A stretch of 64,000 nt of DNA from the NCBI RefSeq assembly GCF_014863545.1, contig NZ_CP062260.1, positions 4,729,501-4,793,500 on the forward strand, given 5' to 3'. The notes beneath the pieces were generated by a model, which was not told the origin of the DNA, ran no database searches, and was given only the letters and a program-made list of their open reading frames with translations. Positions 46,218-62,639 of this stretch are shown piece by piece. The DNA is from Paenibacillus sp. JNUCC32. Its GTDB lineage: Bacteria > Bacillota > Bacilli > Paenibacillales > Paenibacillaceae. Each line of letters starts with the position of its first letter. Within the stretch, counting starts at the first letter, position 1. The position numbers were made by a program, and so were the translations under genes.

Positions 46218-46229
46218 GATCCCGCAATC

Positions 46230-47361: not shown

Positions 47362-47510
47362 GTCCAGTCTCCTCCTTTCACCCATCCATGATGGATCTTG
47401 AACAGGTGCTGCATTGATTATCTTGGCTTTAAGATAGTATCAACGATAACCGAACAGATATCAACATCCTTTAATTCCCTGATTTGAGAATGCATATTTG
47501 CGAATCATTT

Positions 47511-47564: not shown

Positions 47565-47600
47565 AAAGTTGAAGGAATGAAAGAAGAGGAGTTTTGTGTC

Positions 47601-48287
47601 ATGGGATCCATGCATCGTATTCGCGTTTTGCTTGTGGATGACGAGCCGCACATACTGCAATTTCTGGAGCTTGGTCTCCAAAATGAAGGGTTTGAGGTGC
47701 GCACGGCCTCCGATGGGGAATGTGCGTTAAGGGAAGCAGCCAGCTTCGAGCCGCATGTCATCGTTCTGGATGTGATGATGCCGGGAATGGACGGTCTTGC
47801 GGTGTGCAGACGCTTGAAGGAGGAAGGCAGGGATGTTGCGGTCATTATGCTTACCGCGAAGGATGAGATCGATGACCGTGTAACGGGCCTTATGACCGGA
47901 GCGGACGACTACATGGCCAAACCCTTCAGTTTCGAAGAGCTGCTGGCCCGCATTCAAGCTCGGCTCCGCAATCAGTTCCCGAGCCTGCTGGGCGAAATCC
48001 GGCTCGGGCCATTCACCATCGATGACCGCAAGAAAGAAATTTCATACCTGGGGGAAGCCTTGGAGCTTTCCCCTACGGAATATAAATTGCTCAAACTGCT
48101 TGTGACCAAACACGGCAGCGTTCTGAGCAAATCGAACATATTGAATATTGTGTGGGATTATGATTTTGGGGGAGAGGATAACATCGTGGAGGTCTATATC
48201 CGATCCCTGCGAGAGAAGCTCGGAGACAAGGAGCATCGGGTCATTCGCACGCTTCGCGGAGCCGGCTACCGGGTGGATTTGCCATGA
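47601..48287 (+). CDS. OmpR-family response regulator
   Basis: A 228-residue regulator. The receiver has DDE at 13-15 and phospho-acceptor Asp57 in VLDVMMPGMDG. The C-terminal winged helix has LELSPTEYKLLKLLVTKHG and VEVYIRSLREKLGD...IRTLRGAGYRV. ATG 47601 is preceded by AAGAGGAG; the frame extends to 47484 through the repeat promoter and cannot be coding there. The stop overlaps the kinase start as ATGA. Probably autoregulated by the upstream TTCAG repeats. Confidence 0.94.
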   Translation: MGSMHRIRVLLVDDEPHILQFLELGLQNEGFEVRTASDGECALREAASFEPHVIVLDVMMPGMDGLAVCRRLKEEGRDVAVIMLTAKDEIDDRVTGLMTGADDYMAKPFSFEELLARIQARLRNQFPSLLGEIRLGPFTIDDRKKEISYLGEALELSPTEYKLLKLLVTKHGSVLSKSNILNIVWDYDFGGEDNIVEVYIRSLREKLGDKEHRVIRTLRGAGYRVDLP

Positions 48288-49777
48288 GTTTCCGAAACCG
48301 CATACGCGCATCTCGGCCAACGTCTCTGCGCACGCAGCTCCTGTCGCGTTCCCTTCTCGTCTTGGCGCTTCTGCTCGTGCTGATCGGGGCGCTGCAATAT
48401 GTATTGATGAAAAACGCCCTGTTCCGCAATCAGGCCGAGGCGCTTTCGCTTCAGGTCCGCTCTATCCCCGTGGAGATGTGGGAGCCTGATCGCGTGCAAC
48501 ATAACCGGCCTTCTGTTCCGAATAACGACGCCCATGCGGGCATGCCCCGCCAGGAGAATAGACCTTTGCTCTTTCTGCCGAATATGTCGCTTGCCAAGAT
48601 CGCAACGAACGGAAGCTACACCGACCTGGCCAGTGACAACGGTCTGTCCGCTCCGCAGCTGGCAGCAGAGGCTTATACCTCGATTCTGGAGCAATTCAAA
48701 GAGCGTATGCCCGTTCCGTACGAAGTGACTGACGATGCCCAAGGCACCGAGCAGATCGTTGTCTTTCGCCCTTACGGCAGCCCTAACAGCCCTTCCGGTA
48801 TACTGCAGCTTGGAATGGATACGCAGCCGCTCCATGCCGTTCTGCTGCGGCAGCTGCTGATATTTGCCGTGCTGGCTTTGCTTGCCATGGCTGGCGGGAT
48901 CGCATTGTACCTGCCATTGCTGCGCAGGACGCTTAACCCGCTGAGCCGAATGGTCGAAACAGTGGAACGAACGGATGCCGGAAACTTGGCGGAGCGATTT
49001 CCGGCCATGCAGGGTCAGCAGGAGATTGACCGTTTGGCCCAATCGTTTAACGGCATGCTGAAAAGGCTTGAGGGAGCGTTTGAAGCGGAACGCGAGGCGA
49101 AAGAGCAGATGCGGAGGTTTATTGCCGATGCTTCCCATGAGCTGCGCACGCCGCTTACTTCGATTCACGGCTTTCTGGAGGTGCTCGGCCGCGGCGCCGC
49201 CGACAACAAGGAGCAGCTCCATGCAGCACTGTCCAGCATGCACGGCGAATCGAAGCGCATGAAGAAATTGGTCGAGGATTTGCTTCTGTTGGCCAAACTT
49301 GACCGTAAGCCGGAGCTTCATCTGCAGGATACCCGGCTGGATCGGCTGCTGCTTGAGATGGAGCCTCATCTCAGGATGCTCGCTCAAGGCAGAAACGTAA
49401 CGATTCAAGCGGCAGCCGTGCTGTGCCGGTGTGACTCCGACAAGATCAAGCAGGTCATCTACAACCTGTTTCATAATGCGGTACAGCATACTGATTCCGA
49501 CACAGGGCGGATTACCGTTGCGGTGGATAAAACCAAGGACCATGCCGTACTGCTGGTCAGCGACAATGGAGCCGGGATTTCGAAGGAGCATCTGCCCCAT
49601 CTGTTCGAGCGGTTCTACCGCATCGATGAATCCCGGACCCGGCAGCACGGCGGTGCAGGTCTTGGACTGTCCATCACCCAGTCCATCATGAACGCGCATG
49701 GCGGCCAAATGAGCGTGGACAGCACGGTTAACCAAGGAACGGTTTTTCGTGCAGAGTGGCCGGGCATCATTCCTTAG
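48284..49777 (+). CDS. Sensor histidine kinase, HAMP type
   Basis: The 497-residue kinase has helix 1 at about 19-42, an extracellular domain at 43-185, helix 2 at about 187-212, HAMP, then HisKA with His285 in ADASHELRTPLTSI. HATPase boxes are NLFHNAVQHT, DNGAGIS and HGGAGLGLSI. This is the standard EnvZ-like class. It is translationally coupled to the regulator gene. The signal is unknown. Its 3' end overlaps the convergent nitroreductase gene by 11 bases. Confidence 0.94.
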   Translation: MSFRNRIRASRPTSLRTQLLSRSLLVLALLLVLIGALQYVLMKNALFRNQAEALSLQVRSIPVEMWEPDRVQHNRPSVPNNDAHAGMPRQENRPLLFLPNMSLAKIATNGSYTDLASDNGLSAPQLAAEAYTSILEQFKERMPVPYEVTDDAQGTEQIVVFRPYGSPNSPSGILQLGMDTQPLHAVLLRQLLIFAVLALLAMAGGIALYLPLLRRTLNPLSRMVETVERTDAGNLAERFPAMQGQQEIDRLAQSFNGMLKRLEGAFEAEREAKEQMRRFIADASHELRTPLTSIHGFLEVLGRGAADNKEQLHAALSSMHGESKRMKKLVEDLLLLAKLDRKPELHLQDTRLDRLLLEMEPHLRMLAQGRNVTIQAAAVLCRCDSDKIKQVIYNLFHNAVQHTDSDTGRITVAVDKTKDHAVLLVSDNGAGISKEHLPHLFERFYRIDESRTRQHGGAGLGLSITQSIMNAHGGQMSVDSTVNQGTVFRAEWPGIIP

Positions 49778-50399
49778 CCTGAAATACTCCTTCATGCACC
49801 AGTTCATTCAAGGATCGTCGGTCCGTAGGGACCTCCCGTTCCTGCAGCGTCTCCGGCAGCGCCGATTTATCCCCGTGGTATCCAAGCGTTATGACCGCAT
49901 GCAGATCATATTCTTCCGGAATATGCAGGGCTTCGCGGGCAAGCTCATGGTCGAAGCCGCCAATCGCGCGGGTATTCAGCCCAAGCAAAGCAGCCTGCGA
50001 AGCGATTGTTCCCCAAGCAGCCCCCGCATCAAACGCGTGGCTGCCGCTCGGTTCCCCATTGGCATTCAGCGTGTAGGAAACGAGGAGGACAAGCGCCGGC
50101 GCACGATCGCTCCACACGCGGTTTCCGGGACGGATAAAAGACCGGAATCGCTCCCGCTCCTCCTCTGTTCGGGCAACGATAAACCGCCACGGCTGCCCGT
50201 TGCCCGAGGAGGGTGCCCACCGGGCCGCCTCCAAGACAGTATACAGCACATCCGCTTCGACCGGACGGGAGTCAAAGGCCCTCGAAGACCATCGATTCAC
50301 AAAGTGGGCATGCACCGGATATTCGGGACGGCGCGTTTGTTCCGCCACCGTCTTCTTCGACAGGGCTGATACGATTACGGTTGGATCAGGTCTGGTCAT
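49767..50399 (-). CDS. Nitroreductase family protein
   Basis: A 210-residue FMN-dependent oxidoreductase. Family marks are NRWSSRAFDSRPV at the N-terminus, EAARWAPSSGNGQPWRF for FMN binding, and GAAWGTIASQAALLGLNTRAIGGFD in the core helix. Substrates of these enzymes include nitroaromatics, quinones and flavins; the natural one here is not known. Upstream lies the 12-bp minisatellite, then the SsuA-type gene on the same strand, so it may be the distal gene of that transcript. Confidence 0.9.
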   Translation of the reverse strand: MTRPDPTVIVSALSKKTVAEQTRRPEYPVHAHFVNRWSSRAFDSRPVEADVLYTVLEAARWAPSSGNGQPWRFIVARTEEERERFRSFIRPGNRVWSDRAPALVLLVSYTLNANGEPSGSHAFDAGAAWGTIASQAALLGLNTRAIGGFDHELAREALHIPEEYDLHAVITLGYHGDKSALPETLQEREVPTDRRSLNELVHEGVFQAKE

Positions 50400-50438
50400 A
50401 CGATCATCTCTCCTTACCCTTTGCGGGTTATTGTAATA

Positions 50439-50510
50439 CGGCTTGGTCTAAGGCTTGGTTTAAGGCTTGGTCTAAGGCTTGGTTTAAGGCTTGGTTTAAG
50501 GCTTGATCAG
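50439..50510. repeat. Six-copy 12-bp tandem repeat (minisatellite)
   Basis: The unit AGGCTTGGTTTA or AGGCTTGGTCTA is repeated in register from 50439 to 50510. There are six copies; the first has C at position 1 and the last is diverged. It covers the stop codon of the SsuA-type gene. In the reading frame of that gene each unit supplies a stop codon (TAA or TAG), so five stops follow one another. Confidence 0.9.
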
Positions 50511-51509
50511 CCAATCGTCCAATGCAAAATCGGTTTCCGCCAGCTTCTCTTCGATCAGAAAGGCCTTCGTTCCTTCCAGCAGCTGCAGCCCTTGTTCGGT
50601 AAAAGGAACCTCTTTGATCAGCTCGATCGGGCTAACCTTCTTCACGTACTCCACCTTCGTGCTCTGCAATTCGGCCAGAAACGCATAGTACTCTTCCTCA
50701 TGCTGCTTTAAATCCTCTAGCGCCTTGGAACGGGCGTCATTCCACGCCTTGGCGAAATCCGGATATTTCGCCAGATAATCCTCCGACACTACGGTTACGC
50801 TGGTCCCATACAGCTCGGGATGCTTGGTGGCATCGTCCAGCAGCGTATAGCCTTCATCGATTTGTTTGAGCGTATAGACGCCGGTATTGGTCATCGCGTC
50901 GATTTCCCCGCGGGCCAGGGCAGCCTCCGCATCCACGCGAAGCAGGTGGATGACCTTCACATCCTCAGCCAGCCCCTCTTTCTTCAAAAGACCGGCCAAG
51001 TATCGGTGGTGGAAGGAACCTTTTTGAGTGGCTACCGTTTTTCCCTTTAACTCTTCCAGGGAAGCCGGGCCACCCTTCTTCGCCACGAGGTACCCGATGC
51101 TGTCGGTCGAGCCTTGGGTAATCACCTTGGTCTTCGCTCCCGTTGAGCGTGACAGGATGGCCGGCGTATCGCCCAAACTGCCAAAGTCCAGGCGACCGCT
51201 GATCAGCGATTCGCTCAAATCCGGACCGTTCGGAAAGGCGGTCAGGTTTACCGTTTCAATCCCGTGCTTCTTGAGCTCTTCCTGAATAATGCCCTTATGG
51301 AACCCCCAGCCCTCGGCGCCTCCAGGCACATTCAGGGCATTGGTTCCTATATATCCGTAATTGAGCGTCTTCGGCACGCCGGAGCTTGATGCTTCCGTTA
51401 TTTGATCTTTGGTCCCGCAGCCCTGTGAAAAAGCAAGCGCCGCCGCCACCAGCGTCAATAAAATCGCGTATCGCTTTCGCTTGTGTTTTTTAACGTTTCG
51501 ATTCTCCAT
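50496..51509 (-). CDS. SsuA/TauA-type sulfonate-binding lipoprotein
   Basis: A 337-residue lipoprotein with a basic start, hydrophobic segment and lipobox SQGC, the lipidated Cys being about residue 31. The mature domain is of the NMT1/SsuA type: LNYGYIGTNALNVPGGAEG, then GRLDFGSLGDTPAI, TQGSTDSIGYLVAKKGG, and LKGKTVATQKGSFHHRYL. Such proteins bind aliphatic sulfonates, sulfate esters or related anions for uptake. It should serve the two SsuC-type permeases upstream. The last codons run into the 12-bp repeat. Confidence 0.92.
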   Translation of the reverse strand: MENRNVKKHKRKRYAILLTLVAAALAFSQGCGTKDQITEASSSGVPKTLNYGYIGTNALNVPGGAEGWGFHKGIIQEELKKHGIETVNLTAFPNGPDLSESLISGRLDFGSLGDTPAILSRSTGAKTKVITQGSTDSIGYLVAKKGGPASLEELKGKTVATQKGSFHHRYLAGLLKKEGLAEDVKVIHLLRVDAEAALARGEIDAMTNTGVYTLKQIDEGYTLLDDATKHPELYGTSVTVVSEDYLAKYPDFAKAWNDARSKALEDLKQHEEEYYAFLAELQSTKVEYVKKVSPIELIKEVPFTEQGLQLLEGTKAFLIEEKLAETDFALDDWLIKP

Positions 51510-51696
51510 TCGATTTCTCTCCCCTCACAGATCCCATCTCGATATGACATTGCCTCGCTTTCGCTTCTTACGCCTCTTGCTTCTTACGGGGCTTCATGGA
51601 ATCCCCGGCAAACCCTGGCATCAATGAGCCCGCAGATCGTGCTTCCCATGCAGACGGGAAGAGTGGAGCTGCCTGAAAAAGGGGGGAGACTGACGA

Positions 51697-52029
51697 TCAA
51701 GGAACAGAACGCTTCGCGAGCTGAGCCAGAAACGCATGGCTGGATATGGACGTTCGGCCGGGTCCCCATCCCACCTTCTCGCGGTAGCCCCCCAACAGCT
51801 CGGCCTGCTCCAGCTCCGCCTCGCTTAGCCCTCTGAGCCGGTCCGGATGAGGCGCGACGTACATCGCGTCCGCCGGACAATAGAGCTCGCACATAAAACA
51901 GGTTTGGCAATCGTTCTGGCGCGCAATGACAGGCACATCGTTATCGACTTTATCAAATACGTTGGTCGGACATACGGAGACGCACAGATTGCACTGCACG
52001 CATCTGGCATCGCTGATCAGCTCAATCAA
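51697..52029 (-). CDS. Dicluster ferredoxin-like subunit, copy 1 (AprB-like)
   Basis: A 110-residue protein with two [4Fe-4S] motifs, Cys10/13/16/20 and Cys41/44/47/51, then a C-terminal tail with the GWGPGRT motif that copy 2 shares. It starts at TTG 52029, overlapping the flavoprotein stop as TTGA, with AGGAGG seven or more bases upstream. The small subunit of adenylylsulfate reductase is built this way, so electron transfer to or from the flavoprotein is the likely role. The exact reaction is unknown. Confidence 0.9.
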   Translation of the reverse strand: MIELISDARCVQCNLCVSVCPTNVFDKVDNDVPVIARQNDCQTCFMCELYCPADAMYVAPHPDRLRGLSEAELEQAELLGGYREKVGWGPGRTSISSHAFLAQLAKRSVP

Positions 52030-53645
52030 AGGGAAACCGCCTCCTCGCTCACGCGCTGCGCCCGGACGCTGATTTCATCCAACCCGGATGTAATCAGGCG
52101 GTAATGCTGCGTCTCGTCCAGTTCCGGATAATCAACCCGTTTATGCATTCCCCGCGTTTCCGTCCTGGCCTGCGCCGAGCGGTACATCCAGCGGGCCGTT
52201 GCAGCCATGGCCGCTGCCTCGCGTTTCTTCACCGCCTGATAATCAAGATGGATGGGTTCCTGCCGGATCGATTTCCATACGCCGTCGAGCCGTTGCAACG
52301 AATCCCGAAGTCCCTCATCCGTACGGAACAGGTTCCGGTCATAAGGCATGACCTCTTCCTGCACCGCCCGAATGTATTCCTCCGCGGCAATCGGCGGCTT
52401 TTCCTGCAGCGATCCGTAGGTACCGGATGACACGAGCGGAGCCGAAGACAATCCGTGCACCTCGCGTCTAGCGGCATGCCGTCCCAGCGATTTGGCATAG
52501 TCCGCCGCGCCTTCGCCCGCAAAGCTGCCGGAAGACATCGCCCAGGCGGCATTGTGGCTGCCGCCTCCGGTGAATCCGCCGCAGATCAGCTCCCGCGTTG
52601 CGGCGTCTCCGGCGGCATACAAGCCGGGGACCTTCGTGGCGCACGTTTCGTCCACGATATGAATGCCACCGGTCCCGCGCACCGTCCCTTCGAGCCGAAG
52701 CGTGACCGGGAACATATCCTTGAACGGGTCGATGCCCATGCGGTCAAACGGCAGGAAAAAATTCGTCTGCCCCACCCGGAGCAGCGGCTGCAGATCGGCG
52801 GGCGCCTGATCCAATCGGGCATATACCTGTCGGTTCTCCAGCAGTTTTTTGGCAATGACGGAACGTCCTTTGGTCGAGCCCGCTCCCTCTACCACCGTGC
52901 CGTCCTCGTAGTAAAAGCTTGCATAACGGTAATACGCCGTTTTGGTCACCGAGGAGAACGTTGGCGATATGGCGTAGGCGTTGGAGAACTCCATGCCCGA
53001 CATTTCGGCCCCGGCCTCGGCCGCCATCAGATAGCCGTCACCGGTCAACACGTTGCATCCCAGCGCTTTGCTCAGAAAGGCGCAGCCGCCGGTTGCGATG
53101 ACTACGGCACCCGCCGTGACTCTCCAGGGATCGCCGCCCTGCGTGCTTACGCCAGCGGCGCCCCCCACTCCGTGTTCATCCGCCAGAAGTTCCAGCGCAG
53201 GGCTGTGGTCGAGTATTTTGACGCCGGCTCTTTTCACCAGCTTGCGCATGAGACGCATATACTCCGGTCCCTGCAAGCCGCGCCGGAATATGCCGCCATC
53301 CGGATCGACCGGGAACGAATACCCCCAGCCGCCAAGGCGGTTCATATTCTCGTAGGTTTGATCCAGGACCCGATCCATCCACTCATTCTCGGCTAAGCGT
53401 CCGCCCATAAAATACCGGCTCATCTTCGCTTCCTGGCGCTGCCGCCCTTCAGGCTCCACGTACCATACGCCCGTGCCCGACGGCGCCGTTGCCCCGCTTG
53501 ATCCACAGAAGCCCTTATCCGCCAGCACGACATTGCTGCCTTTCGCCGCGGCCGTTAAAGCCGCCCAGGCTCCGGCCGGGCCACCGCCAATGACCAGCAC
53601 ATCCGTTTCCAACTGAAGCGTGCTGCCTTGAATACGTGAACTCAT
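52026..53645 (-). CDS. FAD-dependent oxidoreductase, copy 1 (AprA/fumarate-reductase-like)
   Basis: The flavoprotein has the N-terminal Rossmann motif DVLVIGGGPAGAWAA, the FAD segment KGFCGSSGATAPSGT, the mid-domain VVIATGGCAFLSKALGCN, the RGTGGIHI region and the C-terminal FAD signature PGLYAAGDAATRE. Fold and order match fumarate-reductase/APS-reductase alpha subunits. ATG 53645 is chosen because AGGAGGGG lies about seven bases upstream; the longer frame starts at 53669. It is coupled to ferredoxin copy 1 and is a close paralogue of copy 2. Oxidation or reduction of a sulfur compound is inferred from the transporter genes only. Confidence 0.9.
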   Translation of the reverse strand: MSSRIQGSTLQLETDVLVIGGGPAGAWAALTAAAKGSNVVLADKGFCGSSGATAPSGTGVWYVEPEGRQRQEAKMSRYFMGGRLAENEWMDRVLDQTYENMNRLGGWGYSFPVDPDGGIFRRGLQGPEYMRLMRKLVKRAGVKILDHSPALELLADEHGVGGAAGVSTQGGDPWRVTAGAVVIATGGCAFLSKALGCNVLTGDGYLMAAEAGAEMSGMEFSNAYAISPTFSSVTKTAYYRYASFYYEDGTVVEGAGSTKGRSVIAKKLLENRQVYARLDQAPADLQPLLRVGQTNFFLPFDRMGIDPFKDMFPVTLRLEGTVRGTGGIHIVDETCATKVPGLYAAGDAATRELICGGFTGGGSHNAAWAMSSGSFAGEGAADYAKSLGRHAARREVHGLSSAPLVSSGTYGSLQEKPPIAAEEYIRAVQEEVMPYDRNLFRTDEGLRDSLQRLDGVWKSIRQEPIHLDYQAVKKREAAAMAATARWMYRSAQARTETRGMHKRVDYPELDETQHYRLITSGLDEISVRAQRVSEEAVSL

Positions 53646-53701
53646 GCATGTTCCCCTCCTAATCATCATTGTCCCTCTGTTCTCTCATTCACGAAGCCGG
53701 A

Positions 53702-54565
53702 TCATCCCTTGTAGCTATCCCGCCACTTCAGCAAGCGGCGTTCCAGAGAACGGACGAACAGATCCACCATCATGCCGACGACGGCAAAAACCAATACACC
53801 CACAAAAATTTGCTCCGTTAACGAGGATTGCTTGGCAAGATTGATGAGAAACCCGACCCCCGACTGCGAACCGATCAGCTCCGCAACGACGAGCCCGAGC
53901 CAGGATACCGCCAACGATAAGCGGAGTCCCATTAACAGGTTAGGCAGCGAAGACGGGATGATCAGCTTGATGATCTGCTGAACCCGGCTGTACTGCAGCA
54001 CCCTCGATACCTCGAACAGCTTTTTGTCGACGCTCCGGATGCCGAGAAACGTATTGACGTACAGCGGAAAAAAAGCTCCCTTCGCAATGATCAGCACCTT
54101 CGACGTTTCTCCGAATCCGAACCACAAAATAATAAGCGGGGCGATCGCCAAATGCGGGATCATCCGCAGCATCTGCACCGTCGGATCCAGGAATATTTCC
54201 GACTTGCGCGAGAAGCCCGTCAGCAGGCCGAATATCAAGCCCAGGCTGCCTCCCAGGGCGAAGCCCGCAGCGGCGCGGCCGATGCTTATGCCCAGATGGG
54301 TCGCCATCTTGCCCGAGGCGATCAGATTCCAGAGGGATTCGAAAATCGCCGCCGGCGTCGGCAGGAAGAACGCATCGATCCAGCCAAGATTGCCTGCCAG
54401 CTGCCATATGGCCAGCACCAGAACCGGAAGGGCCGATCCGAGCGCAATGGCCCGTAGTAAGGATGCACGCCGGCGATTGGAACGCGCGGCAGCAGGATTG
54501 GGCGGCTGCGATACAGCGGGTGGCTGCCCCGCCGCAGGCAGCGCAAGTTCGTTCGCGTTATTCAT
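53702..54565 (-). CDS. SsuC-type ABC transporter permease, copy 1
   Basis: A 287-residue permease with six helices and a Pro/Ala-rich N-terminus. The coupling loop reads SRVLQYSRVQQIIKLIIPSSLPNLLMGLRLSL, near residue 185. The motif LSLAVSWLGLVVAELIGSQSGVGFLI is typical of SsuC/TauC. GGAGGAGAC precedes ATG 54565. It lies between permease copy 2 and flavoprotein copy 1, so transport and redox genes share one transcript. Confidence 0.93.
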   Translation of the reverse strand: MNNANELALPAAGQPPAVSQPPNPAAARSNRRRASLLRAIALGSALPVLVLAIWQLAGNLGWIDAFFLPTPAAIFESLWNLIASGKMATHLGISIGRAAAGFALGGSLGLIFGLLTGFSRKSEIFLDPTVQMLRMIPHLAIAPLIILWFGFGETSKVLIIAKGAFFPLYVNTFLGIRSVDKKLFEVSRVLQYSRVQQIIKLIIPSSLPNLLMGLRLSLAVSWLGLVVAELIGSQSGVGFLINLAKQSSLTEQIFVGVLVFAVVGMMVDLFVRSLERRLLKWRDSYKG

Positions 54566-54603
54566 CGTGTCTCCTCCTCTCTCTTGGAATCAGAAGCCGT
54601 GCT

Positions 54604-55500
54604 TTAGCCCTCATAGCTGTCGTTCCATTTCAGCAGCCTGCGCTCCATCAGCCTAACCGCGGCGTCTGCTGCTTTGCCGATGACGGCAAACAGGACGATG
54701 CACACGAACACGGTTGCGGTTTTGCTGAACTGTCTGGCATCCGTCATCAAATAGCCGATGCCGGACGTGGAGCCCATGATCTCGGCAACGACCAGCCCGA
54801 GCCAGGCCAGCCCGAGGGACAGCCGGATCCCGAGGAAGATATGCGGCAGGGAGGACGGAATGACCAGCTTGAAGATTTGCTGGATACGCGTGAAACCCAG
54901 AACCCTTGTTACTTCGAACCATTTGTTATCCACGCCGCGGATGCCCAGATAGGTTTGGATATAGAGCGGAAAGAAAGCCCCTTTGGCGATCAGCAGTATT
55001 TTGGACGACTCCCCGATTCCGAACCAAAGCACGAACAGCGGCGCAACCGCTAAATGCGGAATCATGCGGACCATCTGAATGGATGGATCGAGCACCCGCT
55101 CGGATATGCGGAATACCCCGACCAGAATACCGAAGGCTAGGCCTAGAGCCCCTCCAAGGGCGAAACCCGCCGCGGCACGAACCAAACTGATCCGCACATG
55201 ACCGCCAAGGTCACCCGAGCCCGCCAAGTGGACAAAAGCCTCCGCAATGCGAAGCGGCGTCGGGAAGAGCAGCTCCGAGATGTAACCAAGGTCGCCGAGC
55301 ACCTGCCATAAAACCAGCAGCGACACGGGAAGAACCGCGCCCGCAGCCAAGGTGCCCAGCGACTTCCTCCATATCCCGGCACCTGCTTCGCCCGGGGAGA
55401 GCCTCTGCCGCTGCCCGGCGGCGGGCTCCGGTACCAGCGACTCGCTGCCGTGGACCGGAGCCGGAGGGTCGTGCCGGTACAATCGTGCATGGTCACTCAT
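54604..55500 (-). CDS. SsuC-type ABC transporter permease, copy 2
   Basis: A permease paralogous to copy 1, with the same coupling-loop pattern (RVLGFTRIQQIFKLVIPSSLPHI) and LGLAWLGLVVAEIMGSTSGIGYLM. ATG 55500 is preceded by GGAG ten bases upstream and overlaps the end of a short upstream frame; ATG 55542 with AGGTTAG is the alternative, giving 312 residues. The two permeases could form a heterodimer, or each could serve its own binding protein, of which only one is encoded here. No ATPase gene is present in the island. Confidence 0.92.
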   Translation of the reverse strand: MSDHARLYRHDPPAPVHGSESLVPEPAAGQRQRLSPGEAGAGIWRKSLGTLAAGAVLPVSLLVLWQVLGDLGYISELLFPTPLRIAEAFVHLAGSGDLGGHVRISLVRAAAGFALGGALGLAFGILVGVFRISERVLDPSIQMVRMIPHLAVAPLFVLWFGIGESSKILLIAKGAFFPLYIQTYLGIRGVDNKWFEVTRVLGFTRIQQIFKLVIPSSLPHIFLGIRLSLGLAWLGLVVAEIMGSTSGIGYLMTDARQFSKTATVFVCIVLFAVIGKAADAAVRLMERRLLKWNDSYEG

Positions 55501-55573
55501 TGCGATCACGCTCCGGCTCGGGAAACGCAAATCTTTCATCATCTAACCTGAACATCAGCCAAACCCGTTTCAT
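55493..55573 (-). CDS. Possible 26-residue upstream peptide
   Basis: ATG 55573 is preceded by GAGGAGAGAGGTG and opens 26 codons that end at TGA 55493, overlapping the start of permease copy 2 in the sequence ATGAGTGA. The peptide starts MKRVWLMFRLDDERF and is charged at its C-terminus. It may be a leader peptide that couples translation to the permease. There is no homology evidence. Confidence 0.35.
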   Translation of the reverse strand: MKRVWLMFRLDDERFAFPEPERDRNE

Positions 55574-55597
55574 AAGCGCACCTCTCTCCTCGAATAC

Positions 55598-55636
55598 AAA
55601 AGGAGACATTCTTCGAAATACCGAAGGAATGTCTCC
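55598..55636 (-). terminator. Intra-island terminator-like hairpin
   Basis: GGAGACATTC (55602-55611) and GAATGTCTCC (55627-55636) form a perfect 10-bp stem, extended by TTC/GAA. On the minus strand TTTTGTATT follows. It lies between ferredoxin copy 2 and permease copy 2 and would reduce or regulate expression of the downstream genes. Confidence 0.75.
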
Positions 55637-55681
55637 ATTAGAATGGTTGACAGTATGAATGCTATTGGTTTAGTTCCTGCT

Positions 55682-56020
55682 TTAACTTCGCCGGGGGAGA
55701 ATCCGATCGATGAACGGGGTCTCGTCGATCTCGGCCAGCCGGGTCCGCCCGCGTCCCCAGCCGACCGTCTCCCTCCAGCTTCCGATGATCCCTACCGCGA
55801 TCAGTTCTTCTTCCGTCACCTTCTGCTCCATATCCGCAAAGGGAGAAACATACAGAGCATCGGCAGGACAATAAGCCTCGCATATAAAGCAGGTCTGGCA
55901 ATCCTCCTGACGGGCAATGACCGGAAGCCCCGTCTCCGTCCGGTCGAATACATTGGTCGGACAGACCTTGACGCACAGGCCGCACTCGATGCACCGCTGC
56001 TGACTGACAACCTCGATCAT
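55682..56020 (-). CDS. Dicluster ferredoxin-like subunit, copy 2 (AprB-like)
   Basis: A 112-residue paralogue of copy 1 with identical cluster spacing (Cys10/13/16/20 and Cys41/44/47/51), shared VCPTNVFD and PVIARQ blocks, and a GWGRGRT tail. ATG 56020 overlaps the flavoprotein copy 2 stop as ATGA. It should carry electrons for flavoprotein copy 2. Confidence 0.9.
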   Translation of the reverse strand: MIEVVSQQRCIECGLCVKVCPTNVFDRTETGLPVIARQEDCQTCFICEAYCPADALYVSPFADMEQKVTEEELIAVGIIGSWRETVGWGRGRTRLAEIDETPFIDRILPRRS

Positions 56021-57723
56021 GAGCCTTCCACCTCCCCGGCCGCTGCCGCGATCCAGGCAGCAGCCCCCACGGCTTCACTGCTCCTATTTCTTGAACCACC
56101 ATAGTGTCGGCAAGCGTCCATCGTACCTCGGCTTGCCTGCCGGGGCGGCCGCCCCTCAGGATATACCTGGATATGATCGATCCCCCTTACGGTCAGACGA
56201 TGCTGCTGGTCCGGATTCGGATCCGGGTATTCCAGAAGGGTATGCATCCCTCTGGTTTCCCGCCGGGTCAGCGCAGCCGCATACATCCATCTTGCCGTTG
56301 CCGCCATGGCCGCCGCTTCCCTTGCCTTGATCCGCTCGCGCGAACCCCCGGTTACCTTAGCGTACACTTCCGGCCATAGCCCGTTCAGCCGTTCGAGCGA
56401 TTGCTGCAGGACCGGTTCGCTGCGAAAATAATTGATATCCAGCGGAAACACCTCCCGCTGTACCGATTGAATCAGGCCGGATGCATCCATTCCCTGCCCA
56501 TGTGCTGCGGATGGATGGGACATTCCGGCCCGCCCCGCACCTTGCAGGCGACGGCCGTCCGCAGAAGAACGCGTACTCAGCGCATGCTTCGCCGCCGATT
56601 CGCCAGCCCACGTTCCCGAGCAAATCGCCCAAGAGGCATTAAAAGCCCCTCCGCCCGACTTGGCACCGGTCACCCGCTCCCGGGTTGCGGCATCGCCGGC
56701 GGCGTACAGACCCGGTACCGTCGTCGCGCAATCTTCGCCGGTGATCCGGATGCCTCCGGTTCCGCGGACCGTCCCTTCATAGCGGAGGGTCAAGGGAAAA
56801 CGCTCCTTAAAGGGATCGATTCCCGCCCGATCATACGGAACAAAGAAGATGGCGTGCGATTGCCTTAAAATGCGCCGTTTCTCTTCCGTGTCGGCATGAT
56901 TCAGCATGGCATATACCGGTCCTTTGCGGAGCATCGTCGGCAGAAAATCATGCGGCCTGGGCCCTCCGGGGCTGTACAGCGTATTCCCGTCTTCGTCATA
57001 ATACGTCGCCCAGTTGAGAAGCCGCCCCCGGGTCACCGTGCCAAACGCCGCGCTCGGCGCATATTGGCGGCTGAATTCCATACCGGATAGCTCGGCGCCA
57101 AGCTCCGCCGCCATGAGCAGTCCTTCGCCTGTGAGCACGTTGCAGCCAAGGCCCTTGCTCAGAAAGGCGCAGCCGCCGGTAGCTATGACAACCGACTGTG
57201 CCCGTACCTCCCAATTCTTGTTCTTCTGCCTGCATATGCCTCGTGCTCCTCCGACCCCATGCTCGTCGGCAAGCAGCTCGAGCGCCGGGGACTGATCCAT
57301 GATCCGTACACCCGCCCGGTTGACCGCGCTTCGCATCAGCTTCATATATTCCGGGCCCTGCAAATGGTCTCGCATGGGGACCCCGTTCTCATCGCGGCGA
57401 AACGGGTATCCCCATGCCTCCACGCGTTCCAGGTTGATGTATACCTGATCCAGCACGCGATGGATCCAATCCGGTTCCGATAAATAACCGCCCTCCTTCA
57501 TCCGCTGGGCCACGGCTTCATCGCGCAGCTTATGGTCAGGGGGCAAATATAGCAGATTGGTTCCTCCGGGTGCCGTTGCCCCGCTGGAGCCCAGAAACCC
57601 TTTATCGGCCAATATGACTTTGGCACCTTGGGACGCCGCGCTCCAGGCTGCCCAAGCCCCTGCTGGACCGCCGCCAATGACGAGGACATCCGCCGTCAGT
57701 TTCAATTCATCCTGTGCACGCAA
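56017..57723 (-). CDS. FAD-dependent oxidoreductase, copy 2 (AprA/fumarate-reductase-like)
   Basis: A 568-residue paralogue of copy 1. It shares DVLVIGGGPAGAWAA, KGFLGSSGATAPGGT, VVIATGGCAFLSKGLGCN, RGTGGIRI and PGLYAAGDAATRE, and long conserved stretches such as LQGPEYMKLMRS and ALELLADEHGVGGA. The C-terminal 45 residues (after about 520) are extra and Ala/Gly/Ser-rich. It starts at TTG 57723, eight bases after a GGGGGG-type site. It is the first gene of the island, behind a strong promoter and a leader hairpin. The reaction is unknown. Confidence 0.9.
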   Translation of the reverse strand: MRAQDELKLTADVLVIGGGPAGAWAAWSAASQGAKVILADKGFLGSSGATAPGGTNLLYLPPDHKLRDEAVAQRMKEGGYLSEPDWIHRVLDQVYINLERVEAWGYPFRRDENGVPMRDHLQGPEYMKLMRSAVNRAGVRIMDQSPALELLADEHGVGGARGICRQKNKNWEVRAQSVVIATGGCAFLSKGLGCNVLTGEGLLMAAELGAELSGMEFSRQYAPSAAFGTVTRGRLLNWATYYDEDGNTLYSPGGPRPHDFLPTMLRKGPVYAMLNHADTEEKRRILRQSHAIFFVPYDRAGIDPFKERFPLTLRYEGTVRGTGGIRITGEDCATTVPGLYAAGDAATRERVTGAKSGGGAFNASWAICSGTWAGESAAKHALSTRSSADGRRLQGAGRAGMSHPSAAHGQGMDASGLIQSVQREVFPLDINYFRSEPVLQQSLERLNGLWPEVYAKVTGGSRERIKAREAAAMAATARWMYAAALTRRETRGMHTLLEYPDPNPDQQHRLTVRGIDHIQVYPEGRPPRQASRGTMDACRHYGGSRNRSSEAVGAAAWIAAAAGEVEGS

Positions 57724-57773
57724 TCGTTGATCCCCCCGCTCCTTGGTTGATAGTAAATCGAGGTCCGTACGAC

Positions 57774-57807
57774 AAAAAGGAGATCATGAAGGATGCTCAT
57801 GATCTCC
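57774..57807 (-). promoter_or_regulatory. Leader terminator/attenuator hairpin upstream of the island
   Basis: On the minus strand GGAGATCATGA pairs perfectly with TCATGATCTCC around a seven-base loop and is followed by TTTTTG. It lies about 50 bases after the predicted transcript start and about 50 bases before the first flavoprotein gene, the position of an attenuator. The left arm holds GGAG-ATC-ATG, the start of a short frame. Confidence 0.75.
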
Positions 57808-58041
57808 AGCAGACTGGTCGATTCAAATTTATTTATCATAGTTATTCGATTGGAATTATCAAGTATATTATCAGCTGATGGCACAAGCGTCAAGATTATT
57901 TTTCGGAGGGATCGCTTAACAAAGCGAGACATTCGCTCCCGAGCTTTCCTAAGCCCCGCTGTCTTCGCTCACGCAATTTTTCCTTATATCCTGACAATTT
58001 GGTACAATACAGACGGTACGAGAATGTCAAATGAAGGGACT
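57808..58041. other. Divergent regulatory region between the flavoprotein island and bceRS
   Basis: Non-coding interval holding the island promoter on the minus strand and the bceRS promoter on the plus strand. A TACAAT -10 box for the latter is at 58003-58008, with no clear -35 box. No S-box or T-box elements were recognised. Confidence 0.5.
57865..57893 (-). promoter_or_regulatory. Promoter of the flavoprotein/transport island
   Basis: On the minus strand TTGACG (57893-57888) and TAATAT (57870-57865) with a 17-base spacer make a near-consensus sigma-A promoter. Transcription would begin near 57858 and run through the leader hairpin. Confidence 0.8.
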
Positions 58042-58752
58042 ATGATCGATATGTTCAAAATTTTCATTGTCGAAGACGATGCCGGGCTGGTCGGCCTGCT
58101 GAAAGAATATCTTCATAAATTCGGTTATGCGACGCAGTCCGTTCATGATTTCGAGACGGTGCGCGATCAATTTGAATCGTATGACCCTCATCTTGTGCTT
58201 CTGGATATCAATCTGCCTAAATTCGACGGCTATTATTGGTGCCGGCAGTTCCGCAGCCTCTCCACCTGCCCGATCATCTTCATCTCGGCCCGCGACGGGA
58301 AAATGGATCAGGTGATGGCGCTGGAGAACGGTGCCGATGATTATATAACCAAACCCTTTGACTACGAGATCGTCATGGCCAAAATCAAGAGCCAGCTCCG
58401 GCGGGCCTACGGGTCCTATGCTGCCGGTCAGAATGAGCGGGTCCTCAGCATCGCCGGACTCACGCTTGACGTTGAGCGTCTCTCCGTTTCGCTCGGACCG
58501 ACCCAAGCGGAGCTCAGCCATACCGAAGCCAAAATATTGGACGAGTTAATGAAGAAGCCCAAGCAGATCGTCAGCAGGGACCGGCTTCTGGAGAAAATAT
58601 GGGATGATCAGGCCTTTGTGGACGATAATACGCTGAATGTGTACATCACCCGCGTCCGTAAGAAACTCGCCGCCCTCGGAATCGAGGATGGCCTTCAAAC
58701 CGTGCGCGGGCGCGGCTACCGACTGGTACCGAGCTGGAGGGACGAAGCATGA
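58042..58752 (+). CDS. BceR-like response regulator
   Basis: A 236-residue OmpR-class regulator. Phospho-acceptor Asp55 is in LLDINLPKFDGYYWCRQ, a block typical of BceR regulators. The winged helix has LSHTEAKILDELMKKPKQIVSRDRLLEKIW and VYITRVRKKLAALG. ATG 58042 or ATG 58051 (M-F-K-I-F) may be the start; AAGGG lies just upstream of the first. The frame extends to 57793 through the promoter region. The stop overlaps the kinase start as ATGA. A matching operator lies before the ABC genes. Confidence 0.93.
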   Translation: MIDMFKIFIVEDDAGLVGLLKEYLHKFGYATQSVHDFETVRDQFESYDPHLVLLDINLPKFDGYYWCRQFRSLSTCPIIFISARDGKMDQVMALENGADDYITKPFDYEIVMAKIKSQLRRAYGSYAAGQNERVLSIAGLTLDVERLSVSLGPTQAELSHTEAKILDELMKKPKQIVSRDRLLEKIWDDQAFVDDNTLNVYITRVRKKLAALGIEDGLQTVRGRGYRLVPSWRDEA

Positions 58753-59756
58753 GACTATTTTTGCAAGAACAGCGTCCCTTAATGATTGTCTACATCGCCC
58801 AGCTTCTTGTCGTTACCCTGATCTATAGGCTGGACGGTTATCGCAATTTGACGGTCAGCCTGTACGCGGGCATCATCAGCTTGCTGCTGCTCGTCGGCTA
58901 TCTCGCCTTCCGTTTCATTGCCAACCGTTCCTTCTATAAACGGTTGGAGCAGCCGCTTCCGGGAGAATCCCTCACCGGCGAATCCTCGGCAGAATCCTCC
59001 CACACCCCGCTCGCCGAAGCGCTTCATCAGCTGCTGAAAACCCAGTTCCGGCATTACACCACGGATCTGCATAACTATAAGCATAAAATTGAAGGCCATC
59101 TGCAGTTCATCAACCAATGGGCCCACCAGATGAAAACGCCGATTTCGGTCATTCACCTGATTCTCCAGGATGATGACGACCCCCGTTTTGCCGCGATCGG
59201 CGACGAGCTGGACCGCCTCAAAAAAGGGCTCGATCTCGTGCTGTATACCGCCAGGCTCGATACGTTCGAGCGCGATTTCCATGTGGAAAACCTGCCGCTT
59301 CAACGAATCGTCCGAAATGTCACGTCCGAGCAAAAGCGGCTGTTTATCCGGCGTAGAATGTACCCGTCCATCCGGATCGATTCCGGATTAACGGTGGCCA
59401 CGGACGAGAAATGGCTCTCTTTTGTGCTGACGCAGCTGCTGACCAACGCGGTTCGATATACGCTGAAGGAACAAGGCACCCTCTTTTTCAACGGCTACAC
59501 CCGGGAGAATCAAGTCGTGCTTGAGATAAGGGACGAAGGCATCGGCATTCCCCAAAGCGATCTCCCGCGGGTGTTCGATCCTTATTTCACCGGAGAGAAC
59601 GGGCGCCGATTCCAGGAATCGACAGGCATGGGCCTGTTTCTGGTCAAACAAATATGCGACAAGCTTGGACATGCCTTCGAAATCGAATCCAAGGTCGATG
59701 AAGGAACGACGGTCCGCATCATTTTTGCGGATGCTGCGGGCCATATCGCACAATGA
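58749..59756 (+). CDS. BceS-like intramembrane-sensing histidine kinase
   Basis: The 335-residue kinase has two close membrane helices (about 10-28 and 36-58) and almost no extracellular loop, the mark of the intramembrane-sensing class. The phospho-acceptor is His126 in INQWAHQMKTPISV. HATPase boxes are QLLTNAVRYT, DEGIGIP and GMGLFLVKQICDKLGH. BceS-type kinases do not bind the antibiotic themselves; they respond to transport activity of their BceAB partner, encoded just downstream. Confidence 0.94.
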   Translation: MRLFLQEQRPLMIVYIAQLLVVTLIYRLDGYRNLTVSLYAGIISLLLLVGYLAFRFIANRSFYKRLEQPLPGESLTGESSAESSHTPLAEALHQLLKTQFRHYTTDLHNYKHKIEGHLQFINQWAHQMKTPISVIHLILQDDDDPRFAAIGDELDRLKKGLDLVLYTARLDTFERDFHVENLPLQRIVRNVTSEQKRLFIRRRMYPSIRIDSGLTVATDEKWLSFVLTQLLTNAVRYTLKEQGTLFFNGYTRENQVVLEIRDEGIGIPQSDLPRVFDPYFTGENGRRFQESTGMGLFLVKQICDKLGHAFEIESKVDEGTTVRIIFADAAGHIAQ

Positions 59757-59850
59757 ATTCCACCGGCAGATGGCAGGGTTCGGCAGTGCAAGCTATTTAA
59801 TTAAGTCCGCTGCGGCTTATTCCCGATCTGCTTACGCGGGCAAAAGAAAC

Positions 59851-59881
59851 CTTACAAGGTTGTAAGGTAACTGTAAGTTAC
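59851..59881 (+). promoter_or_regulatory. BceR-type operator upstream of the ABC genes
   Basis: CTTACAAGGTTGTAAG (59851-59866) is a perfect palindrome containing TTACA-AGGT-TGTAA, which fits the TNACA-N4-TGTAA pattern described for BceR-type regulators. A second palindrome, GTAACTGTAAGTTAC (59867-59881), follows directly. A -10 box TACAAT at 59911-59916 lies about 45 bases downstream with a poor -35 box, as expected for an activated promoter. Confidence 0.8.
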
Positions 59882-59944
59882 GAATATGGCATGGACGCAA
59901 ACGAATCTTTTACAATGATAACATCGTTATAGAGGAGTGAAGAT

Positions 59945-60715
59945 ATGCCCATCCTGAGCGTCAAGCATCTATCCAAAATCTATGAGGGCAAAGTGGCGTT
60001 CCAAGCGCTGAACAATATTCACTTCAACGTCTCCAAAGGCGAATTCGTCGGTATTATGGGACCTTCCGGCAGCGGAAAAACGACGCTCCTCAATCTGATT
60101 GCGACCATTGATCAGCCCACGGCCGGGGAAGTGATCATAGGCGGACGCAATCCCCATCTGCTCGGTAGGAGCGATACGGCTCTGTTTCGGCGCAGGGAGC
60201 TGGGCTTCGTCTTCCAGCATTTCAATCTGCTGGATACGCTGACCGTTGAGGAAAACATCGTCCTGCCGCTGACGCTGGAGGGCATGCCGCTGGACGAAAT
60301 GGGCATCCGGCTGAACCGGATCGCAGACCGGCTCGGGATCGGGTCCATTCTGCACAAGCACACCTATGAGATTTCCGGCGGGCAGATGCAGCGCACCGCC
60401 ATCGCGAGGGCGCTCATTCAGGAGCCCTCCCTGATTTTGGCTGACGAGCCGACGGGGAACCTGGACTCCAGAGCCTCCAAAGAAGTGATGCAGACGCTTT
60501 CCGCTTCGAGCAAAGAAGCTTCCGCAACGATTCTCATGGTCACTCACGATCCGGTGGCAGCCAGCTACTGTGACCGCGTCTTGTTCATCAAGGACGGTCA
60601 ACTATATAATGAAATGTATTGCGGTGACAACCGCCAAGCCTTTTTCCAGAAAATCATCGACATGCTGGCGCTGCTGGGAGGAGGAAGTCATGACCTTTCG
60701 ACAATTCGCTTTTAG
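59945..60715 (+). CDS. BceA-like ABC transporter ATP-binding protein
   Basis: A 256-residue ATPase of the BceA/LolD group. Walker A is GPSGSGKTT, the Q-loop is in FVFQHFNLLDTLTV, the signature ISGGQMQR, Walker B LILADEPTGNLD and the switch His in VTHDP. It energises BceB for defence against cell-wall-active peptides such as bacitracin. The start follows AGAGGAGTGA. The 3' end overlaps the permease gene by 26 bases. Confidence 0.95.
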   Translation: MPILSVKHLSKIYEGKVAFQALNNIHFNVSKGEFVGIMGPSGSGKTTLLNLIATIDQPTAGEVIIGGRNPHLLGRSDTALFRRRELGFVFQHFNLLDTLTVEENIVLPLTLEGMPLDEMGIRLNRIADRLGIGSILHKHTYEISGGQMQRTAIARALIQEPSLILADEPTGNLDSRASKEVMQTLSASSKEASATILMVTHDPVAASYCDRVLFIKDGQLYNEMYCGDNRQAFFQKIIDMLALLGGGSHDLSTIRF

Positions 60716-62639
60716 GAATGTCCTGAGGAACAAGCGGACCTACGCGGCCTATTTCTTAAGCAGCGCTTTCTCCGTCATGATTTTCTTTGTGTGCGCGCTG
60801 TTCCTGTTTCACCCTTCCATCACGGACGAGGTGTTCTATCCGGTCGTGATCCAGGCGATGGTTGGCGCTGAGCTGATTATGTACGTATTCTCGTTTTTCT
60901 TCGTGCTGTATTCCGTCGGGGCTTTCTTGAAGACCCGCAAGCGCGAGTTCGGCATTCTGTTCATGCACGGCATGACGGACCGCCAGTTTAACAAGATGGT
61001 GTTTCTTGAAAATATGATCATCGGCGTAAGCGCGATCGCCACGGGCATCCTGTTCGGCATCATTACAGGCAAGCTGTTCCTGATGGCAGGCTCGGCCTTT
61101 CTCGGAGTCCCGCCCCTGCCGTTCCGGCTGAGTCTGCGAGCGCTCGGGCTGACGATCGCCAGTTACGCGCTGCTGTTCCTCATCATCTCGCTGTGCACGT
61201 CCTGGCTGCTGCGGCCCAAAGCGCTCATCGACTTATTCCAGTCCGGACAGCGGCCGAAAACCGCGCCCAGAACATCGCCGTGGTTATCCATATTGGCGGC
61301 TGTCCTGCTGCTTGTCAGCTACGGCCTGGCAGCCACGACAAGCGCATCGACCCTCGCGCTGCGCATGTTCCCGGTTACCTTGATGACGATGATCGGCACT
61401 TATCTGATTTATTCGCAGTTAGGGGTTGCTCTCGTCCGCAGGCTGAAAGAAAGCCGCCGGTTCACCTGGAGAAGAACCAAGCTGATCTCGCTATCCAGCC
61501 TGCAGTACCGGTTGAAGGATCATGCCCAGATGTTTTCGATGGTGACGATCGTGCTGGCCGTGTCTTTTTGCTCGGTAGGCGTATTCGCCTCCATTCCGGT
61601 GCTCACGAAGCAGTTCAACGAGGACTTCCCGGCCGCCATCGGTTATCTCGCCAAAACGGGAGATACCTCCGAAGAGCAGCATTTGAACGAAATCCGGCAG
61701 GAGCTGGAGTCGAGGAAAATACCGTTTGAAACGCTATCGTTTCGCGTTAAATATACGGATGCTGAACCGGCATCCGCACAGGCCGGTCCATCGGAGATTC
61801 CGTTGACGCTGATCGCGTTCTCCGACTATAAGGCGGCCGTCGTGATGGCGGGACTGCCGTTTGACGAACAGCCGCCGAGCGGTGAGGAGGCCCTTGTCCT
61901 CATTGCTTCGCAAAACGACAGAGCTTATACCCGCAACCGGGATTACGCTTCTTACCGGCTTCGGGATTCCGGCATCCGGCTGCGTGAAATCGGTTATTCA
62001 GATCATGTCGGCGTGCCGGAATACTTGCTGCCGGAGATGGATGACGATTCCCGTTTCGGCGGTCTTGTCGTCAGCGACGACATCTTTGCCGCCGTCACGG
62101 ATCCGGTCCGTCAGGAACGGTACACCGGCTTCTACGTGGACGATTTTACGGAGACGGAGGGGATCGTTCCCCATTTGGCTCCGGGCGGTGCCGTGCGCTA
62201 TGAGATGGACCGGACCTTTGCGCTGGCGGTCAGCGGTACGCTGTTCGCCCTTCGGGACAGCCTGTACAACATGCTGCTCTTCGCGGCATTGCTTGTGGGC
62301 ACGGTGTTTTTTATCGCGGCTGGAAGTTTCCTGTACTTCCGCCTCTATGCCGATCTGGATTTTGACCGCAGGCATTATGCCACGATATCCCGGCTCGGCA
62401 TGACGGACAGGGAGTTCAGGCGGATCGTTACCGGACAGCTCGCGCTGCTGTTTTTTGTACCGATCGGACTTGCGATCGTGCACAGCATCTTTGCCTTCAT
62501 CGCGCTGCAAAGCTATTTCTATTTATCCATTGCGGCTGAAATGGGCATCGTGCTGATCAGCTTCCTGATGATGCAGGTCCTGTACTTTTTCTTCATCCGC
62601 AGCCAATATCTGCGCAAGCTGAAGCAGACCCTTATATAA
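60690..62639 (+). CDS. BceB-like ABC transporter permease
   Basis: A 649-residue permease with ten helices. The N-terminus FRQFAFRNVLRNKRTYAAYFLSS is typical of BceB, and a large extracellular domain (about residues 315-520) between helices 7 and 8 is the ligand-recognition domain of the family. ATG 60690 is chosen because GGGAGGAGG lies a few bases upstream; the longer frame from 60570 runs through bceA. It forms the sensory and detoxifying complex with BceA and BceS, acting on antibiotic bound to undecaprenyl (pyro)phosphate-linked intermediates. Confidence 0.94.
   Translation: MTFRQFAFRNVLRNKRTYAAYFLSSAFSVMIFFVCALFLFHPSITDEVFYPVVIQAMVGAELIMYVFSFFFVLYSVGAFLKTRKREFGILFMHGMTDRQFNKMVFLENMIIGVSAIATGILFGIITGKLFLMAGSAFLGVPPLPFRLSLRALGLTIASYALLFLIISLCTSWLLRPKALIDLFQSGQRPKTAPRTSPWLSILAAVLLLVSYGLAATTSASTLALRMFPVTLMTMIGTYLIYSQLGVALVRRLKESRRFTWRRTKLISLSSLQYRLKDHAQMFSMVTIVLAVSFCSVGVFASIPVLTKQFNEDFPAAIGYLAKTGDTSEEQHLNEIRQELESRKIPFETLSFRVKYTDAEPASAQAGPSEIPLTLIAFSDYKAAVVMAGLPFDEQPPSGEEALVLIASQNDRAYTRNRDYASYRLRDSGIRLREIGYSDHVGVPEYLLPEMDDDSRFGGLVVSDDIFAAVTDPVRQERYTGFYVDDFTETEGIVPHLAPGGAVRYEMDRTFALAVSGTLFALRDSLYNMLLFAALLVGTVFFIAAGSFLYFRLYADLDFDRRHYATISRLGMTDREFRRIVTGQLALLFFVPIGLAIVHSIFAFIALQSYFYLSIAAEMGIVLISFLMMQVLYFFFIRSQYLRKLKQTLI

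Follow-up and report, generated by a model that had tools for sequence, protein, structure and literature searches.

A two-clade asfAB cluster in Paenibacillus sp. JNUCC32 and a candidate leader RNA that may gate sulfur scavenging

A stretch of 64,000 nucleotides from Paenibacillus sp. JNUCC32 (contig NZ_CP062260.1, positions 4,729,501 to 4,793,500; genome size 7.0 Mb), hereafter the window, whose coordinates are used throughout, carries seven genes on the minus strand. In order of transcription, they encode a flavoprotein and a ferredoxin (asfA1, asfB1), permeases 1 and 2, a second flavoprotein and ferredoxin (asfA2, asfB2) and a binding lipoprotein, the numbers of the pairs denoting the first and the second transcribed. 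We consider it probable that this locus is a Paenibacillus version of the asf system, with AsfAB proteins of two clades and an importer combined in an RNA-gated operon. We also lean towards the view that an undescribed class of cis-regulatory RNA of the order is represented in the window by two copies, each a mini-hairpin joined directly to an intrinsic terminator and read by a putative sulfur-status antiterminator. This RNA would gate a sulfur-scavenging regulon of both AsfAB clades, sulfonate importers, SsuD-like and NtaA-type monooxygenases, cysK with nitrogenase-like genes, and arylsulfatase-like and TauD-like genes. The gene cluster may be regarded as a new arrangement of a known system, and the leader RNA as the part that may be new.

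The initial annotation had placed the seven genes on one strand with a four-base overlap in each flavoprotein-ferredoxin pair, and both points were confirmed. The asfA1 gene (56017-57723, minus strand; 568 amino acids from a predicted TTG start) overlaps asfB1 (55682-56020, minus) by four bases, as does asfA2 (52026-53669, minus) with asfB2 (51697-52029, minus), and each ferredoxin has two 4Fe-4S motifs. The pairs are paralogous, as had been claimed, with identities of 53% between the flavoproteins and 57% between the ferredoxins, and the products of asfB1 and asfB2 agree in the spacing of their eight cysteines and in a GWGxGRT tail. Against the CHR2 record of Cupriavidus metallidurans CH34, AsfA2 gave one match at an expectation value (E) of 1e-10 or below (62% identity, residues 16-536, E 4.3e-193), and the matching gene is followed by an overlapping ferredoxin gene; an asfB-type gene directly downstream and overlapping is thus found with both window pairs and in CH34. 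The passages available from the CH34 genome paper place asfRAB on CHR2 and name the reductase and the ferredoxin AsfA and AsfB (PMC2864759). According to the parts seen of a review, asfRABC is needed for the use of aromatic sulfonates in Pseudomonas putida S-313, and a P. putida asfA transposon mutant lost the use of aromatic sulfonates and kept that of aliphatic ones (PMC4267179). Because of the single CHR2 match, its overlapping ferredoxin gene and these published passages, we assign both pairs, on sequence grounds, to the AsfAB family. The system is hence of an already described kind and was wrongly termed undescribed by the initial annotation, AsfAB being in print in the portions seen of three papers (PMC2864759, PMC4267179, PMC9694294).

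The AsfA flavoproteins have the AprA/FrdA fold, which is common also to 3'-phosphoadenosine-5'-phosphosulfate (PAPS) reductase. They are set apart from AprAB and the two-subunit PAPS reductase by scores far below the cut-off of the AprA model (67.2 bits for AsfA2 and 59.3 bits for AsfA1, against 557). All rows of the AsfA alignment (44/44) have Gly and Glu at the positions of Escherichia coli FrdA His44 and His355, which we take to be the covalent flavin adenine dinucleotide residue and a catalytic residue, respectively. Fumarate/aspartate (FrdA/NadB) chemistry was considered for AsfA and is made unlikely by these two replacements; FrdA H232, E245, R287 and R390 fall in alignment gaps. In the protein database, AsfA2 has at least 5191 relatives at E ≤ 0.001 (among 7999 candidates listed), and its best match among those listed is 98% identical and named Paenibacillus lautus. 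A scan of viral contigs with AsfA1 found no relative.

In a tree of 74 AsfA rows calculated by a quick method, AsfA1 and AsfA2 fall in separate clades, both starred. The large clade that includes the CH34 AsfA also contains AsfA2, placed there with Paenibacillaceae, and the clade of AsfA1 consists of Paenibacillaceae, two cyanobacteria and one Armatimonadota sequence. As judged from this topology, the two flavoproteins represent two deep AsfA clades, and a recent duplication of the pairs is rejected. Nor is the cluster a chance assembly, since the flavoprotein is present in 15 of the 40 genomes searched as relatives and, at E ≤ 1e-100, in 51 of 98 genomes of the genus (own genome included in both); 36 of the latter have two copies, one has three and 14 have one.

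The usual gene order in relatives (genomes and loci are given below by our G and L numbers) is ATPase, permease, permease, AsfA2, AsfB2 and binding protein, in some followed by AsfA1 and AsfB1. G000, G004 and G019 have the order of the window, in which the A1B1 pair comes first and an ATPase is missing; it was found neither in the other five annotated two-copy clusters of the genus (G001, G005, G017, G022 and G066) nor on the P. cellulositrophicus plasmid. Three irregular clusters were also encountered: G012 (L051, 8310-9459) has a degraded one, with ATPase and AsfA pieces beside open AsfB and binding-protein genes; in G105 an AsfA1B1 pair stands alone, far from the AsfA2 cluster of that genome; and in G094 the second of two asf clusters is the more divergent one, having both pairs and a nitroreductase-like gene but lacking an ATPase (both in the L170, L169 set).

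Comparison of upstream sequences revealed a shared leader element, which consists of YCRA, a four-pair hairpin with a variable tetraloop and AGRY, the latter starting an intrinsic terminator. Element 1 (57774-57821, minus) precedes asfA1 and reads CGA, then the hairpin CCAG TCTG CTGG and the terminator; element 2 (55598-55650, minus) lies between asfB1 and permease 1, with the hairpin CCAT TCTA ATGG and a terminator. The 3' strand of the hairpin and the base of the terminator have GG in common. Both elements have counterparts in G004 and G019. Besides asfA1 and permease 1, the element stands in front of the ATPase gene in several other asf clusters, of a sibling operon described below and of an ssu-like operon of the same genome. 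It was absent upstream of the asf operons of P. cellulositrophicus, G005 and G036 and of the second cluster of G094. When 4.6 Mb of fetched loci, counting both strands, were scanned with pairing demanded, 122 raw matches resulted, many of them plainly chance; 32 elements were picked from these by eye, aligned and converted to a search model. Pairing in this alignment reached 89.2% of cells against 69.9% in shuffled ones, a biased figure, pairing having been a criterion in choosing the elements.

Searched with this model, the 7.0-Mb genome yielded five matches with E from 9.0e-12 to 5.3e-10 (9.0e-12 for each of elements 1 and 2), the next standing at 4.9e-4; four of the five, including both window elements, were in the training set, and that of the sibling operon was not. 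Two of these copies are the window elements before asfA1 and permease 1; the other three stand upstream of the sibling operon, of the ssu-like operon and, at 179 kb, of a gene of unsettled kind that comes after a dioxygenase-like gene beside a monooxygenase/ATP-binding cassette (ABC) locus. All five are within or next to loci of organosulfur type. The 179-kb locus contains a weaker copy as well (E 0.006), before an aldo-keto-reductase-like gene, and the other weak matches inspected (L182, L183, L185-L187) resemble ordinary terminators. Among 4227 Rfam families none matched the window at 49600-58700 with E ≤ 1, and at gathering scores 13 other element-bearing loci returned only an unrelated BsrG RNA (L230, 380-619, 71.8 bits, in a locus with a leader-element match).

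To this selected alignment a model without any pairing information can be added. It gave 45 matches in 53 loci, of which 42 rows were used after two partial matches and one with an insertion and a three-pair stem had been dropped. These rows contain 24 distinct hairpins, 15 of them outside the training set, and all 24 are paired at four of four positions (G-U counted). They comprise six stem types; the loop varies freely, the stem covaries, and none of 5000 shuffles equalled the pairing. The leader hairpin, as far as these alignments go, is therefore covarying also under the model that ignores structure.

At E ≤ 1e-4 the element was found in 75 of 98 genomes of the genus, namely in 49 of the 51 that carry AsfA (G054 and G088 being the exceptions) against 26 of the 47 others, a comparison limited by the non-independence of the species and by the bias of the model towards asf leaders. 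In a sample of the order, 113 of 247 genomes and 25 of 45 genera had it at E ≤ 1e-6. Its distribution before asfA was followed in 79 AsfA loci of named genomes, taken from the best 80 of at least 169 confirmed AsfA relatives. Outside Paenibacillaceae it precedes asfA in Neobacillus (L086, E 2.2e-9, not in training) and in Capsulimonas (L130, an Armatimonadota genome, in training), and no other locus outside that family among the 79 has it at E 1e-6. The largest number in any locus searched was seen in Paenibacillus agaridevorans (L137, 1672-9028), with five elements within about 7.4 kb around asfA.

Of 20 matches at other loci of the genus, 12 stand before genes of a recognisable kind. Four of them have cysK with nitrogenase-like genes downstream (L223, L228, L231, L234), two an SsuA-like protein together with a NifH-like gene (L224, L229), two NifB or NifH-like plus nitroreductase-like genes (L232, L233) and a further two a nitroreductase-like gene (L222, L227); L235 is followed by an arylsulfatase-like gene and L236 by TauD-like genes. 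One representative per type was scanned for these labels; cysK, nifH and nifB passed the cut-offs and the others did not. The eight loci with cysK and nitrogenase-like, NifH-like or NifB genes may be organosulfur loci of the methylthio-alkane reductase type and not nitrogen-fixing. Outside the genus, 20 matches from the upper part of the order-level list were inspected: 15 precede asf, ssu-like, monooxygenase or sulfatase-like genes, and one precedes an ABC ATPase fragment. It should be noted that G074, G089 and G111 (L238, L240, L237) have leaders very like asf leaders and no AsfA, and these are possibly remnants of lost asf operons.

The importer of the cluster is composed of permease 1 (54604-55542, minus; 245 bits to NF008470), permease 2 (53702-54565, minus; 232.4 bits to the SsuC model), which are 56% identical and SsuC-like, and the SsuA/NMT1-like substrate-binding lipoprotein (50496-51509, minus; TIGR01728, 130.4 bits). 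The asfRABC operon described for P. putida includes a periplasmic binding protein, AsfC. The start of permease 1 is unsettled: a ribosome-binding-like GAGGAGAGAGGTG (in 55542-55590) precedes an ATG out of frame with the permease frame listed from 55542, and the frame listed in G004 begins at the corresponding ATG. As the initial annotation observed, the cluster contains no importer-type ATPase and no monooxygenase (SsuD). The missing ATPase need not, however, be a real lack. The closest relative in this genome of the asf ATPase of P. cellulositrophicus is encoded at 1424023-1424787, 3.4 Mb from the cluster (69% identity, the next being 47%), where it opens a sibling operon of ATPase, binding protein, two permeases and an NtaA/DmoA-family flavin mononucleotide (FMN) monooxygenase. 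In a tree that carried warnings on long outside branches, the ATPases of Paenibacillus asf clusters and of sibling operons fell into a single clade (99/98). Four importer clusters without ATPase were met (G000, G004, G019 and the second of G094), and all of these genomes have such an ATPase elsewhere; G004 and G019 carry the same sibling operon, and G094 also holds a complete asf cluster. The importer may thus be energised by an ATPase shared from elsewhere in the genome. The sibling operon is not tied to ATPase-less clusters, because G001 and G008, which have an asf ATPase of their own, carry it too, as do G056 and G090, which lack AsfA. After this operon lies a gene for a 624-amino-acid protein with an N-terminal region like an extracytoplasmic function (ECF) sigma factor (L074, 14063-15937), which is kept beside the operon in G004, G019 (as two frames), G056 and G090.

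Taken as a working model, the lipoprotein and both permeases would import a sulfonate-type compound with power from an ATPase encoded elsewhere, and AsfAB enzymes of both clades would supply or perform a redox step that frees sulfite, their partner being most likely a flavin monooxygenase encoded elsewhere. Each pair probably serves a different substrate range. The intrinsic terminators behind the conserved small hairpin would hold the operon off; upon sulfur limitation, a putative factor would stabilise the hairpin, which, sharing GG with the terminator base, would trim the terminator next to the U-run and so permit read-through. The leader may accordingly represent an undescribed sulfur-scavenging attenuator with a putative sensor. 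An import and redox system for organosulfur compounds of sulfonate type, as the initial annotation had it, is supported, with a flavoprotein of AprA/FrdA fold.

Several observations weigh against this interpretation. Neither the SsuA nor the SsuC model cut-offs were reached (130.4 of 163.5 bits for the lipoprotein, 232.4 and 245 of 347 bits for the permeases), and no LysR-type (AsfR) gene was present among the neighbouring open reading frames (ORFs) read at 46000-62000; with no adjacent AsfR, the pairs are therefore filed as AsfAB homologues and not as an asfRABC operon. The CH34 record was the sole AsfA reference. The 79 loci were found using AsfA, and their context is that of the AsfA family and not of this species. 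As to the monooxygenase partner, five of the 51 AsfA-bearing genomes of the genus have neither an SsuD match of at least 300 bits nor an NtaA-type match at E ≤ 1e-90. On the RNA side, matches lean to asf because the model was trained mostly on asf leaders from a scan that demanded pairing; eight of the 20 other genus matches (L225, L226, L230, L237-L241) and four of the 20 order-level ones (L268, L271, L273, L274) have no clear sulfur gene after them. Minimum-energy folds of four leaders showed the terminator in all four and three hairpin pairs in one only (L223), and a plain terminator scan of the region found 12 against 8.3 expected, little above chance.

Among the alternatives, the initial annotation favoured an oxygen-independent route, in which the AsfAB pairs would themselves be desulfonating enzymes cleaving reductively with ferredoxin electrons. 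We regard this as doubtful. It agrees with the absence of an oxygenase from the cluster, with a fold common to two proteins that act on sulfur compounds, AprA and PAPS reductase, and with the lack of a 300-bit SsuD match in 36 of the 51 AsfA-bearing genomes of the genus, including the five mentioned above; a general need for SsuD in the genus is likewise not borne out, the model cut-off being passed in 6 of 98 genomes. Positive support for the route was, however, not obtained. No strict anaerobe was recognised among the organisms named for the 79 loci listed, and monooxygenase families are frequent neighbours there: within up to 9 kb, 27 of the loci have an NtaA-type monooxygenase, 13 a TauD-like and 13 a DszC/SfnB-like protein (labels that rest on one representative each, the last two under cut-offs), along with the AsfB family in 74, binding protein in 54, ATPase in 50 and permease in 44. 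In the parts seen of the review, AsfAB is described as part of an oxygenase system (PMC4267179). The own genome encodes elsewhere an SsuD-like protein (414 bits to TIGR03565, cut-off 518.2) and three NtaA-type matches (one named). Possession of either type is uninformative as to AsfA, as 46 of 51 AsfA-bearing and 37 of 47 other genomes have one.

It is also unlikely that the leader element, in place of a regulatory RNA, is a DNA operator or no more than a family of strong terminators. The terminator does dominate the predicted folds, and intrinsic terminators often stand before operons, but here a small hairpin precedes the terminator, its loop is free while its stem covaries in six types, the 15 hairpins outside training are all fully paired with no shuffle equal to them, and the element recurs inside the operon (element 2) as well as at its start. 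That the two pairs constitute one obligate heteromeric A1B1-A2B2 enzyme, a variant of the heteromer raised by the initial annotation, we hold to be very improbable: 34 of the 36 two-copy genomes (not G073 and G105) have their copies near each other on a single contig, yet A2B2 occurs without A1B1 in G015, G011 and G013, and A1B1 without A2B2 in G036 and G008, in each case beside a similar importer (G018 and G038, at contig ends, and the degraded G012 were left aside). There is still less to be said for a cluster that handles a non-sulfur ligand and resembles Ssu and Asf at superfamily level only. Proteins of the SsuA-type fold bind many ligands and the binding protein is under the SsuA cut-off; against this stand the 62% identity to the CH34 AsfA and a leader common to ssu-like, cysK, arylsulfatase-like and TauD-like genes.

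Compared with known systems, the locus resembles asfRABC of P. putida S-313 and CH34 in its overlapping flavoprotein and ferredoxin genes, in the AsfA2 match and in having a binding protein and ABC genes nearby; it differs in its two AsfAB pairs of different clades, leader RNA, Bacillota host, and the lack of an adjacent LysR gene and importer ATPase. With SsuABCD it has in common an SsuA-like binding protein and SsuC-like permeases, whereas the scores are below curated cut-offs and SsuB, SsuD and SsuE are missing from the cluster. NMT1 (xanthine) riboswitches, S-adenosylmethionine (SAM) riboswitches and T-box leaders similarly precede transporter or sulfur genes, but the window element is without an Rfam match. 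An NMT1/xanthine riboswitch was set aside for the leader on this ground and since NMT1 RNAs are described, in the source passages available, as exclusive to Proteobacteria and almost without terminators. No report of AsfAB in Bacillota, of such sulfur leaders or of Paenibacillus sulfur regulation was found in the literature, which is weak evidence, as subscription journals were thinly covered; the accessible parts of RNA-discovery papers likewise held no sulfonate or Paenibacillus motif of this kind.

Further features of the region are as follows. A candidate promoter region upstream of element 1 (57835-57893, minus) contains TTGACG-17-TAATAT at 57893-57865 and TTGATA-16-TATGAT at 57862-57835; this evidence is weak, because a consensus scan found six promoter-like sites against 3.9 expected in shuffles. 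Just after it lies ATTCCAATCGAATAACTATGAT, similar forms of which were seen before several other asf operons in the upstream comparison. Downstream, a nitroreductase-like gene that, like the two leader elements, is missing from the initial annotation (49767-50399, minus; 64.7 bits to the best model, cut-off 152) starts 96 bases after the binding-lipoprotein gene on the same strand, and occupies the same position in G004, G019 and after the second cluster of G094. Between these two genes, at 50430-50506, lies a tandem repeat similar to AACCAAGCCTTA, with a unit of about 12 bases. The other neighbours in the ORFs read at 46000-62000 are two two-component systems that flank the cluster (47484-49777 and 57793-62639), the second followed by a BceAB-like ABC transporter; both flanks are kept in G019 and the first in G004. 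The sole ABC ATPase near the cluster is BceA-like (59945-60715, opposite strand) and 36% identical to an asf ATPase.

AsfA serves as a marker of sulfonate-sulfur mobilisation by soil bacteria, and the taxa listed in the passages available are only Beta- and Gammaproteobacteria and Actinobacteria (PMC4267179, PMC9694294). The present survey places it, in two clades, in about half of the sampled genomes of Paenibacillus. If the shared leader RNA is true, it would provide a sequence handle on the sulfur-scavenging regulon of the order and would join asf, ssu-like, nitrogenase-like and sulfatase-like genes into a single response. The leader thereby makes RNA-level sensing of sulfur status a testable question in these bacteria.

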